IMG/VR virus record: IMGVR_UViG_3300043435_000120
Location: 1 to 36,437 of that record
Length of the DNA stretch: 36,437 nt
Direction: 5' to 3' (one strand)
Origin: a virus
Both the position numbers and the translations under genes were made by a program. Shown one piece after another: positions 4,879 through 35,618 of the stretch. The notes beneath the pieces were generated by a model. It was given only the letters and a program-made list of their open reading frames with translations, ran no database searches and had not been told where the DNA came from. How positions within the stretch are numbered: position 1 is the first letter of the stretch; the number at the start of each line of letters is the position of its first letter.

Positions 4879-5255
4879 CAACCACACCGAAGTACCTAAT
4901 TGAACAGGCTTTTGTCTTTCGTCTTGCGGCTGAGCAATCCTTAGATCCAAAGGATGAAGGTGTTCAAGATATGCAGATGCGCTTGATTCGGGAAGAGTTC
5001 CATGAATTTATTGAAGCACACTGTGCCGAAGATCACAGCGATAGTGCTGAGCATACCCTCAAGGAACTAGCAGATCTCGTTTTTGTCTGCTACCAGTATG
5101 CCTTGGCTCGTGGCTGGAATCTGGACACCGCAATGGCAAGAATCTTTGAAAGCAATATGAGCAAATTCGTGGATGGCAAGCCCCTCCGCCGCGAAGATGG
5201 TAAGATACTCAAGGGACCCAACTACCAACCACCATTCCTGACTGACCTTCTATGA
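4875..5255 (+). CDS. MazG-like nucleotide pyrophosphohydrolase
   Basis: This 126-residue all-alpha NTP pyrophosphatase-like protein has the paired metal-binding motif of the family: E41-x-x-E44 in REEFHEF and E64-x-x-D67 in KELADLV. The tail FESNMSKFVDGKPLRREDGK and KGPNYQPP is typical of phage members. Such enzymes hydrolyse (d)NTPs to monophosphates. In cyanophages, MazG proteins have been proposed to tune nucleotide or alarmone pools, but the substrate here cannot be read from sequence. It overlaps both neighbours by ATGA, which ties it to the reductase genes. Confidence 0.85.
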   Translation: MTTTPKYLIEQAFVFRLAAEQSLDPKDEGVQDMQMRLIREEFHEFIEAHCAEDHSDSAEHTLKELADLVFVCYQYALARGWNLDTAMARIFESNMSKFVDGKPLRREDGKILKGPNYQPPFLTDLL

Positions 5256-6640
5256 CTGCCTCTCGTATTGCCCGCACAGGTCGGGTTCAAAGCTGGATTG
5301 ATGATCCAGAATCACGCCTGCCTGTGTCTTGTACTGTCTTCGTTGTTGAAGATGAAATGGAAGGTCCCAATGGAATCGAAGCCAGTTGGAGATTCGTCTC
5401 CCATGCCCTCCGTAACGGAGCAGGAGTTGCTGTCCACCTTTCTAAACTCCGTGAGCGGGGAAGTGAAAATGGTAAAGGACTCGTGGCGTCAGGTCCTGTC
5501 TCTTTTGCCCGCATATATTCAACGCTCAATGAAATCCTAAGACGTGGTGGCATTTATAAAAATGGTGCTGTTGTCTGCCACCTTGACTATACTCATCCAG
5601 ATGCCCTTGAATTTATCAACGCATCACGCTCTGAGTTGTCCTGGGTTAAGCGATGTCTTAACGTTGATGGTGCCTTCCTTTCCGGTGCATCTCCTGAGCT
5701 AGTAGAAGCAGCCCTTGAAGGTATTAAGAAGGGTGACATCTGGCTCAATAAGATCCGGTATGACTCAGAAGGTAATCGTATTTATGGAAATGTCTGCCTT
5801 GAAGTTTATCTACCTAGCCGTGGCACTTGCCTTCTTCAGCACATCAATCTGGGTGCTTGTCAGCTTGAAGATCTCACTCCAGCTTTCGTAGAAGGAATGA
5901 CTTCCCTGATTAATCTTCACGCCAATACAGGTGTTGGAGATACAGGTGAGTATCTTTCTCCTGAGGTAGATCGTCAGGTTGGTCTAGGTGTTCTTGGGTT
6001 GGCTAACTTCCTATGTCAGAATGGGGTAACTTACAAACAATTTGGCGAAGCTCTAGATGCTTACATCTCACACCAACCAGTACATACACCAGCATACCTC
6101 CTTGTCTCGGAGTTGGCTAAGTCCATCGAGATTGCGGCGCAGATCGCTCGTCATGCGAACATGCAACGGGCCTTTGCCATTGCTCCTACCGCTTCTTGTA
6201 GTTACAATAATGTTGATCTTCGGGGGTACACTACCACTCCTGAGTTGGCTCCTCCTATTAGCCGCAACGTTGACCGCGATTCTGGGACGTTTGGAGTTCA
6301 ATCGTATTCATACCCGCCTGATTGCGAGATTGCATCGGAAGTTGGTTGGGATGATTACAAAAAGGTAGCTGATGGAATTGTAACGTTGTTCCGATCAACG
6401 ATGCTATTTCATGGGTACTCCTTTAACTCATGGTCCGATGTTGTTACTTACAACCGTGAGTTCCTAAGGGATTGGATGGCGTCATCCCAAACATCCCTCT
6501 ACTATGCCCTTCAAGTATTGCCAGACACCCAAGCAAAGGATGATGCAATGGCTGCGCTTGATGATGACTTTAGAGATCTTTTTTCCTTTGAGGAAGAGAC
6601 TGAGTTTAAAAACGAACCTTGTATTCCTTGTGGAGAATGA
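5252..6640 (+). CDS. nrdA: Compact class I ribonucleotide reductase alpha subunit
   Basis: This reduces ribonucleotides to deoxyribonucleotides with the NrdB encoded next. It has 462 residues, against roughly 700-760 for standard NrdA. The core catalytic set is visible: redox cysteines C27 and C203, the radical triad N180-C182-E184 (GNVCLEVY), PTAS at 312-315, the radical-transfer pair Y417-Y418 in SLYYALQ, and a C-terminal CxxC (C457, C460) for re-reduction. There is no N-terminal ATP-cone. It resembles the compact phage reductases known from Synechococcus phage S-CBP4. Coupled translation with MazG-like and NrdB is suggested by 4-base overlaps at both ends. Membership in that clade is my inference. 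Confidence 0.9.
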   Translation: MTASRIARTGRVQSWIDDPESRLPVSCTVFVVEDEMEGPNGIEASWRFVSHALRNGAGVAVHLSKLRERGSENGKGLVASGPVSFARIYSTLNEILRRGGIYKNGAVVCHLDYTHPDALEFINASRSELSWVKRCLNVDGAFLSGASPELVEAALEGIKKGDIWLNKIRYDSEGNRIYGNVCLEVYLPSRGTCLLQHINLGACQLEDLTPAFVEGMTSLINLHANTGVGDTGEYLSPEVDRQVGLGVLGLANFLCQNGVTYKQFGEALDAYISHQPVHTPAYLLVSELAKSIEIAAQIARHANMQRAFAIAPTASCSYNNVDLRGYTTTPELAPPISRNVDRDSGTFGVQSYSYPPDCEIASEVGWDDYKKVADGIVTLFRSTMLFHGYSFNSWSDVVTYNREFLRDWMASSQTSLYYALQVLPDTQAKDDAMAALDDDFRDLFSFEEETEFKNEPCIPCGE

Positions 6641-7368
6641 CTAAACATACATCACCTTATGATCAAGTAATCTCCAGAAAGCGAAAGTGGACGCCTGTTG
6701 CTGTTCAAAAGAATAAACTTGTTGACGGGGCTGAGGACGCGATTTATCGTGCCCTTGGTCTTCGTCACCTAGAACTACCCGTTCGTGAATTCCTACAACA
6801 GGGACTTGAAAAGGAACTACCTAAGACCCCTGGTGTTAGGGAAGCCCTACTGTCTAATCAATTGGATGAAGAGAGGCATGATCAAGCTCTTAATTATGTA
6901 GTAGCTGCTCATGGTTCAGATCAGAAGTTTGAATCAGAAGCAAAGCACATTCTTAAGGCGTGGCTAGATGCCCCTGAGCATCCATTACTAAAAGCCGCAA
7001 TCCTTGAACGCAGTGTCTTCTTCGTCATCCTTCCCTTCTTCCGATTCAATGGTGACATCGGAATCAGAACCACAGCAGCCGACATCTCCAGAGATGAGCA
7101 AACCCACGTTGCCATCCACTCGATGGTCTGCTCAGAGCTGGGACTTAAGTCCACATCAAGCCTCAATCGACTTCGCAGAGCGACTGTGGGATGGGTAGTA
7201 GATGGGCTTGGTAAATCTGAAAGCAAGTATCTTGATAAGGATTTCTGGTTGGCTCAATCAGATTCCCTTTATGAAAAAGGAAAGGCGCCAGGCTTGTCGG
7301 ACACGACTCGTGCCAGAATGCCTTGTTTTTTTGAGGCAGCAAACAATGACCTCCCCCAATACGGTTGA
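6637..7368 (+). CDS. nrdB: Ribonucleotide reductase beta subunit (ferritin-like)
   Basis: This is the radical-generating partner of NrdA, 243 residues, shorter than the usual 320-380. Likely metal ligands are E46 (HLELPV), E78-x-x-H81 (EERH), E124 (LERSVFF) and E154-x-x-H157 (DEQTH), the expected carboxylate/histidine set of a dimetal site. The residue at the spacing of the E. coli radical Tyr122, seven after the first Glu of the ExxH motif, is L85; the nearest tyrosine is Y87. The C-terminus ends NDLPQYG, a plausible docking tail for alpha. It starts inside the nrdA stop (ATGA). Confidence 0.9.
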   Translation: MTKHTSPYDQVISRKRKWTPVAVQKNKLVDGAEDAIYRALGLRHLELPVREFLQQGLEKELPKTPGVREALLSNQLDEERHDQALNYVVAAHGSDQKFESEAKHILKAWLDAPEHPLLKAAILERSVFFVILPFFRFNGDIGIRTTAADISRDEQTHVAIHSMVCSELGLKSTSSLNRLRRATVGWVVDGLGKSESKYLDKDFWLAQSDSLYEKGKAPGLSDTTRARMPCFFEAANNDLPQYG

Positions 7369-7376
7369 CGTTTGTT

Positions 7377-7706
7377 ATGCTTGACTGCAACTGCTGCTCA
7401 CAGATCCTTCCAGAATCAGCTTTTTACAAAGAGACTCGCACTAAACGAGGCTACCAACGCAGGTGCAAGTCCTGCCAAAAAGCTGGCGCTGCGTATTCTT
7501 ATGAAAAGAATCAAGACGGTAAATGCTTGATCTGCGGAAGCACAGATTCGTGTCACAACTCAGGTCAGTTTGTTGTAGATCACTGCCATTCTACCGGAGT
7601 TGTCAGGGGGTTGCTATGTCATCATTGCAACTTACTACTGGGTCACGCTAAGGATTCCACTGTAACTCTACAAGCTGCTATTAACTATCTTAACAATCAT
7701 GGCTGA
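7377..7706 (+). CDS. Endonuclease VII-type homing nuclease
   Basis: This 109-residue protein has an N-terminal zinc-ribbon-like set (C4, C6, C7, then C30-x-x-C33). The endonuclease VII fold follows: C50-x-x-C53, the catalytic DHCH at 68-71 and C81-x-x-C84 in GLLCHHCN. T4 endonuclease VII resolves branched DNA, but free-standing copies scattered between phage genes usually behave as homing nucleases. The ATG at 7377 is preferred; a TTG at 7365 overlaps the nrdB stop. It overlaps the next gene by 8 bases, so it has been stitched tightly into the operon. Confidence 0.85.
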   Translation: MLDCNCCSQILPESAFYKETRTKRGYQRRCKSCQKAGAAYSYEKNQDGKCLICGSTDSCHNSGQFVVDHCHSTGVVRGLLCHHCNLLLGHAKDSTVTLQAAINYLNNHG

Positions 7707-29748: not shown

Positions 29749-30066
29749 ATGCTACTCAAGGGTCCTTCTGATTACCTTTTTAATTTAAGGGCTATGTCTT
29801 CCTCAGAAGCTAAACGACTTTGGCGATCTGCAATTAAAGAACATTGGAATAATCAATGTGTTTATTGTGGATCAAATCATGATCTAACGTTGGATCACGT
29901 CATTCCAAAAGCCCGTGGAGGTCATAATATCACATCTAATGTGGTACCTGCTTGTCGCAAGTGTAACCAGAGCAAAGGTTCTAGTCACTGGCTCAGCTGG
30001 TGGATAGGACAGGAACACTTTGACCATTCTAATTTTTCAAAAGTCCTTACTTGGACAACCGGTTAA
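29749..30066 (+). CDS. HNH endonuclease
   Basis: This 105-residue protein shows the complete HNH fold: C37-x-x-C40, the catalytic DH at 49-50 within LTLDHVIPKARGGHN, N64 in TSNVVPAC, and C69-x-x-C72. Such free-standing genes between phage genes are usually homing nucleases; some help terminases, and this one lies between the two terminase genes. An internal ATG at 29794 is an alternative start. The DNA is AT-richer than the genes around it. Confidence 0.85.
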   Translation: MLLKGPSDYLFNLRAMSSSEAKRLWRSAIKEHWNNQCVYCGSNHDLTLDHVIPKARGGHNITSNVVPACRKCNQSKGSSHWLSWWIGQEHFDHSNFSKVLTWTTG

Positions 30067-34413: not shown

Positions 34414-34450
34414 AGGTTCTGTTGGATAAATACCAACCAACCTTTTTTTT
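34414..34450 (+). terminator. Strong terminator before the HNH gene
   Basis: AGGTT pairs with AACCT (outer), and GTTGG (34421-34425) pairs with CCAAC (34433-34437) around a seven-base loop; eight T follow from 34443. It closes the noncoding region just 20 bases before the HNH start. Confidence 0.8.
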
Positions 34451-34469
34451 TAATAACATTATTAATATT

Positions 34470-34940
34470 ATGTGGAAACCAATTCCAACTTATTCAAACT
34501 ATGAAATTTCTGATCTTGGAGAAGTTCGACGTATTGGCTCTATTAAACTGCGAAAGCAGGAAACACTTAAAGGTGATCATCCCTATCAATTTATAACTTT
34601 GTCTGCTGCTGGAAAACAAAAGAAATTTTCAGTTCATCGTCTGGTGCTTCAAGCGTTTGTTGGTCCGTGCCCCGACGGTTGTGAATGTATGCACCTTGAT
34701 GATAACCCTAAAAATAACAAACTAGAAAATTTAAAGTGGGGAACAGTCAAGGAAAACCGCAGTACCATCAAACGCAAAGGAGAACATGGTAGTAACTCTA
34801 AACTAACAACTGAACAGGTACTTATAATTAGAGAATTAGTGTCGTACGGAAATAAACAAACTCTTCTTGCCAAAGATTTTAATGTTACGCAGGCGGCCAT
34901 TAGCAATATGGTCACACGTCGCACCTGGCCCCACATTTAA
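34470..34940 (+). CDS. NUMOD4/HNH homing endonuclease with helix-turn-helix tail
   Basis: This 156-residue protein has a NUMOD4 motif at the start (WKPIPTYSNYEISDLGEVRR), an HNH_3 core with H56 (VHRLVLQAFVG), H75 (CMHLDDNPKNNKLENLKWG) and N83, and a C-terminal DNA-binding helix-turn-helix (LLAKDFNVTQAAISNMV). This is the usual build of a phage homing nuclease. It lies just upstream of thyX in AT-rich DNA. The ATG at 34470 gives the exact family N-terminus; the upstream frame from 34422 is leader. Confidence 0.9.
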   Translation: MWKPIPTYSNYEISDLGEVRRIGSIKLRKQETLKGDHPYQFITLSAAGKQKKFSVHRLVLQAFVGPCPDGCECMHLDDNPKNNKLENLKWGTVKENRSTIKRKGEHGSNSKLTTEQVLIIRELVSYGNKQTLLAKDFNVTQAAISNMVTRRTWPHI

Positions 34941-34970: not shown

Positions 34971-35618
34971 ATGCCTCCCTTTGAATCACCGTTCGCTAAC
35001 GTGACCAAGCTTATCTGGATCACACCAGAAGCTGAACAACAGATTGAATACTGTGCAAGAGTCAGTAACCCAAAGGGTCAAGATAAGATAGACACAACCG
35101 GAAAGTTGCTTCGCTATCTTGTAAAGCATAAACATTGGTCTCCCTTTGAGATGGCCTCAGCGTGTGTCGAAATAACAACCACGAGAGACATCAGTGCACA
35201 GATACTCCGACACAGAAGCTTTTCCTTTCAGGAGTTCTCTCAGCGGTATGCGGAAGTTTCAGCAGTTCCCGTTGTCCCTGAACTACGGAGACAAGATCAT
35301 ACAAATAGACAAAACTCTATTGATGATCTGGACTACTTGAGACAAGATCTCTACTCTTCAAAGATTCAACACCTCTTTGATGAGTCGTATCGTCTTTATA
35401 ACGAGTTGCTTGAAGAAGGTATCGCTAAGGAGTGTGCTCGAAAGATCCTTCCCATTAACAGCCCTACCCGGCTTTATATGTCGGGAACCATTAGGTCGTG
35501 GATTCATTACCTTTCCGTAAGGCGAGAGGCGGGTACTCAGTTAGAGCATAGGCTTATTGCTAATGAGATCTATCAAACCCTCAACAAAGAGATGCCTAAC
35601 CTATGGAAAGTCCTTTGA
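34971..35618 (+). CDS. thyX: Flavin-dependent thymidylate synthase ThyX
   Basis: This 215-residue enzyme makes dTMP from dUMP with FAD and a folate donor. The defining RHRx7S motif is present: R80-H81-R82, then S90, in LRHRSFSFQEFSQRY. LLRYLVKHKHWSPFEMA and the late IRSWIHYLSVRREAGTQLEH support the fold. The length is typical. It completes the dNTP supply started by the reductase cassette, although it sits 28 kb away on the window. It overlaps the next gene by 16 bases. Confidence 0.95.
   Translation: MPPFESPFANVTKLIWITPEAEQQIEYCARVSNPKGQDKIDTTGKLLRYLVKHKHWSPFEMASACVEITTTRDISAQILRHRSFSFQEFSQRYAEVSAVPVVPELRRQDHTNRQNSIDDLDYLRQDLYSSKIQHLFDESYRLYNELLEEGIAKECARKILPINSPTRLYMSGTIRSWIHYLSVRREAGTQLEHRLIANEIYQTLNKEMPNLWKVL

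Follow-up and report, generated by a model that had tools for sequence, protein, structure and literature searches.

The stretch of DNA analysed here (the window, a virus record of 36,437 bases) has its genes arranged as in a T7-like cyanopodovirus, running from primase-helicase through DNA polymerase A, exonuclease, a MazG-like pyrophosphohydrolase, ribonucleotide reductase (RNR) α, RNR β and endonuclease VII to the portal gene and onward. The gene pair at 5252-7368 is the clade Ø (also termed Cyano SP) RNR of this cyanopodovirus. The ATG of the β gene at 6637 overlaps the stop codon of the α gene in the sequence ATGA (6637-6640). The window also carries, besides endonuclease VII (7365-7706), two HNH endonuclease genes (29749-30066 and 34422-34940), one of which adjoins a thymidylate synthase gene (34971-35618). 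The features of the RNR pair are as follows:

5252..6640, + strand: RNR α (catalytic) subunit, 462 amino acids, clade Ø type, without an ATP cone (PF02867, E = 9.7e-22)
5795..5797, + strand: α C182, catalytic (thiyl) cysteine in NVCLE, invariant in 211 α proteins
6500..6505, + strand: α Y417-Y418, radical-transfer tyrosine pair, invariant in 211 α proteins
6620..6631, + strand: α C-terminal C457-x-x-C460, reducing cysteine pair (CxxC in 141 of 211 α proteins, CxC in 69 of 211)
6637..7368, + strand: RNR β (small, ferritin-like) subunit, 243 amino acids, Cyano SP / clade Ø family (PHROG 6799, similarity to cyanopodovirus β, AlphaFold2 model)
6688..6690, + strand: W18, which probably corresponds to W48 in the electron relay of E. 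coli, invariant; the equivalence is drawn from position
6772..6774, + strand: E46, metal ligand 1, a Glu shared with classes Ic and Id where Ia and Ib have Asp; invariant, equal to P-SSP7 E42
6865..6867, + strand: D77, the second-sphere Asp that precedes E78 and marks the clade, invariant, equal to P-SSP7 D70
6868..6879, + strand: E78-x-x-H81, metal ligands 2 and 3, invariant
6889..6891, + strand: L85, codon CTT, four residues past His81, where E. coli has its radical tyrosine Y122; Leu in all relatives covering the column; aligns with F127 of C. trachomatis R2
6895..6897, + strand: Y87, codon TAT, the earlier candidate for a shifted tyrosine; four of 270 sequences have Phe here and one has Asn; its counterpart in C. 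trachomatis R2 is Y129 by alignment
7006..7008, + strand: E124, metal ligand 4, invariant
7093..7107, + strand: D153-E154-x-x-H157, second-sphere Asp and metal ligands 5 and 6, invariant
7360..7362, + strand: Y242, the last residue but one and probably the counterpart of Y356 in the relay between subunits, invariant; role in the clade proposed in Burnim 2022

The window β matches PHROG 6799, "ribonucleotide reductase class Ia beta subunit", at E = 4.9e-113 and is 50-65% identical to cyanopodovirus β proteins; identity of the α subunit to its cyanopodovirus counterparts is mostly 63-71%. With the window β as query, tblastn matched 56 phage records, all but a few of them from cyanophages; identities were 36-65%, and each match covered 96% or more of the protein. 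As a clade member the window protein is divergent: it shares 64-65% identity with the proteins of Syn5 and SS120-1 and 53% with that of P-SSP7, and many environmental contigs are closer. Named members of the clade, which spans cyanopodo- and cyanosiphoviruses, include P-SSP7 YP_214198.1 (locus L082), Syn5 gp34 and S-CBP4. The β gene of S-CBP4, the phage whose α subunit was solved, is interrupted as deposited (NC_025464.1; L084 2507-3226), with a shorter CDS, a match in two pieces and a stop in frame.

The β family was first recognised by Harrison 2019 (PMC6370689) in YP_214198.1; there the P-SSP7 protein is described as having no Tyr122, ligands E,E,H,E,E,H and an Asp-Asp second sphere, and perhaps as a new subclass "If" (Table 4). 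Burnim 2022 reported Leu or Phe at the radical-tyrosine site of clade Ø and placed the clade as ancestral to classes I and II. The window pair agrees with the published description throughout and shows no functional difference from it. The α subunit is minimal (462 residues; published mean about 412), lacks an ATP cone and has the tyrosine pair Y417-Y418 and the double-cysteine tail C457-x-x-C460. Directly 3' lies the short ferritin-like gene (243 residues against about 240), which encodes the redox-inert Leu (L85) at the radical-tyrosine site and the E,E,H,E,E,H ligand set with D77 and D153, and whose product ends one residue past the relay tyrosine (Y242-G243).

Two observations on other members concern the reach of the clade. 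In Microcystis phage Mic1 (L083 3983-4753) the α gene, at 74772-76049, lies about 12 kb from the β gene at 61630-62367; thus, unlike in the clade report, α and β are not always adjacent. In the related viral contigs (L103-L109), α was likewise not found in the β flanks. Thirteen β loci came from bacterial or archaeal metagenome-assembled genomes (MAGs) and single-cell genomes (L090-L102), and 11 of them have cyanopodovirus genes as neighbours, among them portal, exonuclease and scaffold genes. Because of these flanks, the 11 "bacterial" clade Ø loci are probably phage sequences within MAGs and single-cell genomes, and a phage origin of such loci may bear on the published claim that the clade occurs in marine bacteria.

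The fold of the β subunit points to an R2 protein. A Foldseek search of the PDB placed R2 proteins first (Bacillus halodurans R2, a clostridial R2, the Flavobacterium class Id protein, NrdF and the Mn/Fe NrdB of C. trachomatis); the best matches, among them classes Id, Ic and Ib, were modest (TM about 0.5-0.6, E about 1e-3). When the window β alone was searched by sequence against the PDB there was no match, no Pfam or NCBIfam model reached threshold for it, and the R2 matches obtained with the β family profile were all weak. The R2 assignment therefore draws chiefly on clade membership, ligand set and fold. It might be supposed that β is some other ferritin-like oxidase or oxygenase that merely lies downstream of α, particularly as Foldseek also returned, at rank 32, a Prochlorococcus aldehyde-deformylating oxygenase (as expected for the ferritin-like fold) and the window β falls in no Pfam family at threshold. 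We regard this as very unlikely: β overlaps the α stop codon, the class I tyrosine pair is kept in all 211 α proteins, the relay Trp, the Asp and the penultimate Tyr are kept in β, and the R2 Pfam model picks up 25 of 86 family members, though weakly (best E = 1.8e-5). Co-expression of P-SSP7 α and β, as reported in Harrison 2019 (PMC6370689), also speaks against it. That the β gene has decayed or been misassembled has next to no probability, as the frame is open at full length, the active-site residues are invariant and near-identical full-length relatives occur in many independent assemblies; the intact family already refutes this idea, and nothing was found in its favour.

The original prediction held that the β subunit lacks the radical tyrosine, and this was borne out. 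Counted from the ATG at 6637, E78 (GAA, 6868-6870) and H81 (6877-6879) form the E-x-x-H motif exactly as had been described, and the residue four past His81, at the E. coli Tyr122 position, is L85; its coordinates and numbering were likewise exact. From relatives collected on 248 viral contigs, in 8 phages and on 13 genome contigs, β proteins were extracted and aligned. Position 85 is Leu in every sequence that covers the column (248/248 viral-contig, 8/8 phage and 12/12 genome-contig relatives, about 268 in all); the probes of the viral scan excluded residue 85, and one of the two genome-contig probes contained it. The family is not a set of near copies: mean pairwise identity is about 62%, and only 43 reference columns are invariant, 4 of them thin N-terminal ones. 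As all covering relatives of so diverse a family carry Leu, the residue at position 85 is, on this alignment, neither chance nor a sequencing slip. F128, L132 and I150, which form the predicted hydrophobic pocket around L85, are also invariant among the aligned relatives; judged from their spacing to the ligands, we take them to correspond to E. coli F208, F212 and I234 and so to line the radical-site pocket. The β subunit is thus genuinely without a radical tyrosine, and since this has been published for P-SSP7 and for the clade, it was already known at the family level. What is added here is the invariance of Leu at position 85 across about 268 relatives, together with the case against Y87 presented below.

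The set of metal ligands is complete. All six ligands that had been thought present are found (E46, E78, H81, E124, E154 and H157), and they align with E42, E71, H74, E117, E147 and H150 of P-SSP7 β, matching its set. These six residues, along with D77, D153, W18 and Y242, are invariant wherever covered among the aligned β relatives. In the α subunit the active-site cysteines C27, C182 and C193 and the pair Y417-Y418 are invariant where covered in 211 proteins, and for the penultimate tyrosine of β a relay role has been proposed for the clade (Burnim 2022). With relay residues invariant in both subunits, the predicted radical route to substrate has no gap; what is missing throughout is the residue on which the radical is usually stored.

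It had also been proposed that a shifted tyrosine might be used. On this view Y87, six residues past the histidine, would hold a stable radical beside a diiron or dimanganese centre. Conservation would favour such a role, as position 87 is Tyr in 265 of 270 sequences (Phe in 4, Asn in 1; the alignment counts the window twice), far beyond the other core tyrosines, but other lines of evidence make it quite improbable. The AlphaFold2 model of β (pLDDT 90.6, pTM 0.87) has residues 67-92 as one helix, and a helical wheel drawn on it places E78, H81 and L85 on one face (0-60 degrees) and Y87 at 240 degrees, about 160-180 degrees off L85 and E78, a facing read from the wheel and not a measured distance. 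By this helical-wheel reasoning Y87 would face away from the metal side. A profile alignment with C. trachomatis R2, of weak score but spanning the E-x-x-H motif, sets L85 on F127 and Y87 on Y129, and that R2 is itself the type case of a tyrosine-less R2, class Ic (PMC4118035).

Natural variation at position 87 also speaks against a radical there. A quick tree requires four changes, fitting three to Phe and one to Asn. At loci L057 (whose β shares 88% identity with that of the window) and L090, the Phe87 protein is complete in length, has lost none of the ligands or relay residues and is encoded next to an intact α. In the β proteins of L057, L059 and L090 none of the four ferritin-core helices contains a tyrosine, yet all ligands and relay residues are kept. 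The helix facing, the Phe87 variants and the Tyr129 of C. trachomatis at the same place suggest that Y87 is probably structural. The Asn87 protein is a solitary clade Ø-like β from Calothrix membranacea FACHB-236 (L100 3001-3711) that departs from the family at the near-invariant W109 and R152; no α was found within 3 kb or in the Calothrix draft genome, a search that had no positive control for α there. Given the missing α and the departures at other near-invariant sites, this variant is given little weight. The natural Phe87, core-tyrosine-free β proteins of L057 and L090 (and also L059) provide a ready-made experimental test of a non-tyrosyl oxidant.

Without a radical tyrosine the oxidant might instead be a radical stored on some other residue, for example W18, Y242 or the conserved W109 and W186, with the dimetal site only generating it. 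W18, W186 and Y242 are invariant and W109 is nearly so, yet W18 and Y242 match class I relay residues, which store no radical, and W109 and W186 lie in AlphaFold2 helices 96-111 and 174-188, outside the four ligand helices. We consider storage on such a residue unlikely.

The window β was also compared with the characterised subclasses. Class Ia and Ib R2 proteins (E. coli NrdB, NrdF) share the fold, the ligand pattern and the Trp and C-terminal Tyr relay, but they have Tyr four residues past the histidine and Asp as ligand 1, where the window has L85 and E46. Metal-free class Ie proteins have lost three carboxylates and have a DOPA-forming Tyr, whereas the window β keeps all carboxylates and lacks the Tyr. 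Class Id (Flavobacterium johnsoniae, Mn2), whose structure is among the best Foldseek matches, shares the Glu as ligand 1, an α without an ATP cone and, in all likelihood, the metal-centred oxidant, but retains an unused tyrosine at the radical site and has Cys or Ser before ligand 2, where the window has L85 and D77. The class Ic R2 of Chlamydia trachomatis (1SYY, Mn/Fe) likewise lacks the radical Tyr and has Glu as ligand 1 (E46 in the window), a Tyr six residues past the histidine (Y129) and the R2 fold. The window β differs from it in having Leu and not Phe at the radical site, in being about 100 residues shorter and in having Asp (D77) and not Glu before ligand 2. The class Ic cofactor is Mn(IV)/Fe(III), with Y222 as the activation relay in C. 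trachomatis R2 (PMC4118035), and the window β has no equivalent of Y222, D149 standing at that place in the weakly scoring profile alignment. Published β trees set the clade apart from Ic (PMC6370689). Plain class Ic membership is rejected because of the Asp at 77 and the missing Y222 equivalent, and class Id membership because the tyrosine is lost.

The reading we hold with fair confidence is that clade Ø β is a minimal ferritin-like radical generator without a radical tyrosine, in which the dimetal cluster itself most likely stores the oxidising equivalent that is relayed to α. The Leu substitution, the full ligand set, the full relay and their invariance can be read from the aligned sequences; a metal-centred oxidant in the window β is what we infer from them. 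A high-valent cluster held by E46, E78, H81, E124, E154 and H157 would store the oxidising equivalent, which would then pass by W18 and Y242 to Y418 and Y417 of α and on to α C182. In support, Y87, the sole nearly conserved tyrosine of the bundle, is dispensable in natural variants, and ligand 1 is the Glu that Ic and Id also have. On the other side stand the missing counterpart of Y222 and the second-sphere D77, which fits no characterised subclass. Of the two cofactors first suggested, the tyrosine-independent one (putatively Mn/Fe- or Mn2-like) is best supported and is also the proposal of the literature, while the shifted tyrosine is disfavoured. An Ic-like Mn/Fe cluster is slightly favoured over an Id-like Mn2 one, although nothing in the sequence fixes the metals. 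That the window β works like Ic or Id is supported; that it is Ic, or is Id, fails in each case on a tested feature. More tentatively, and with considerable doubt on our part, clade Ø β may be a separate radical-generating subclass, perhaps near-ancestral, with a metal-centred oxidant unlike either the Mn/Fe of Ic or the Mn2 of Id; it could, for instance, be activated without a Y222-type relay and be tuned by the unique D77.

A 2026 preprint describes biochemical characterisation of the clade as still to come (PMC12918982). DNA-precursor synthesis in many lytic cyanophages starts via clade Ø chemistry.
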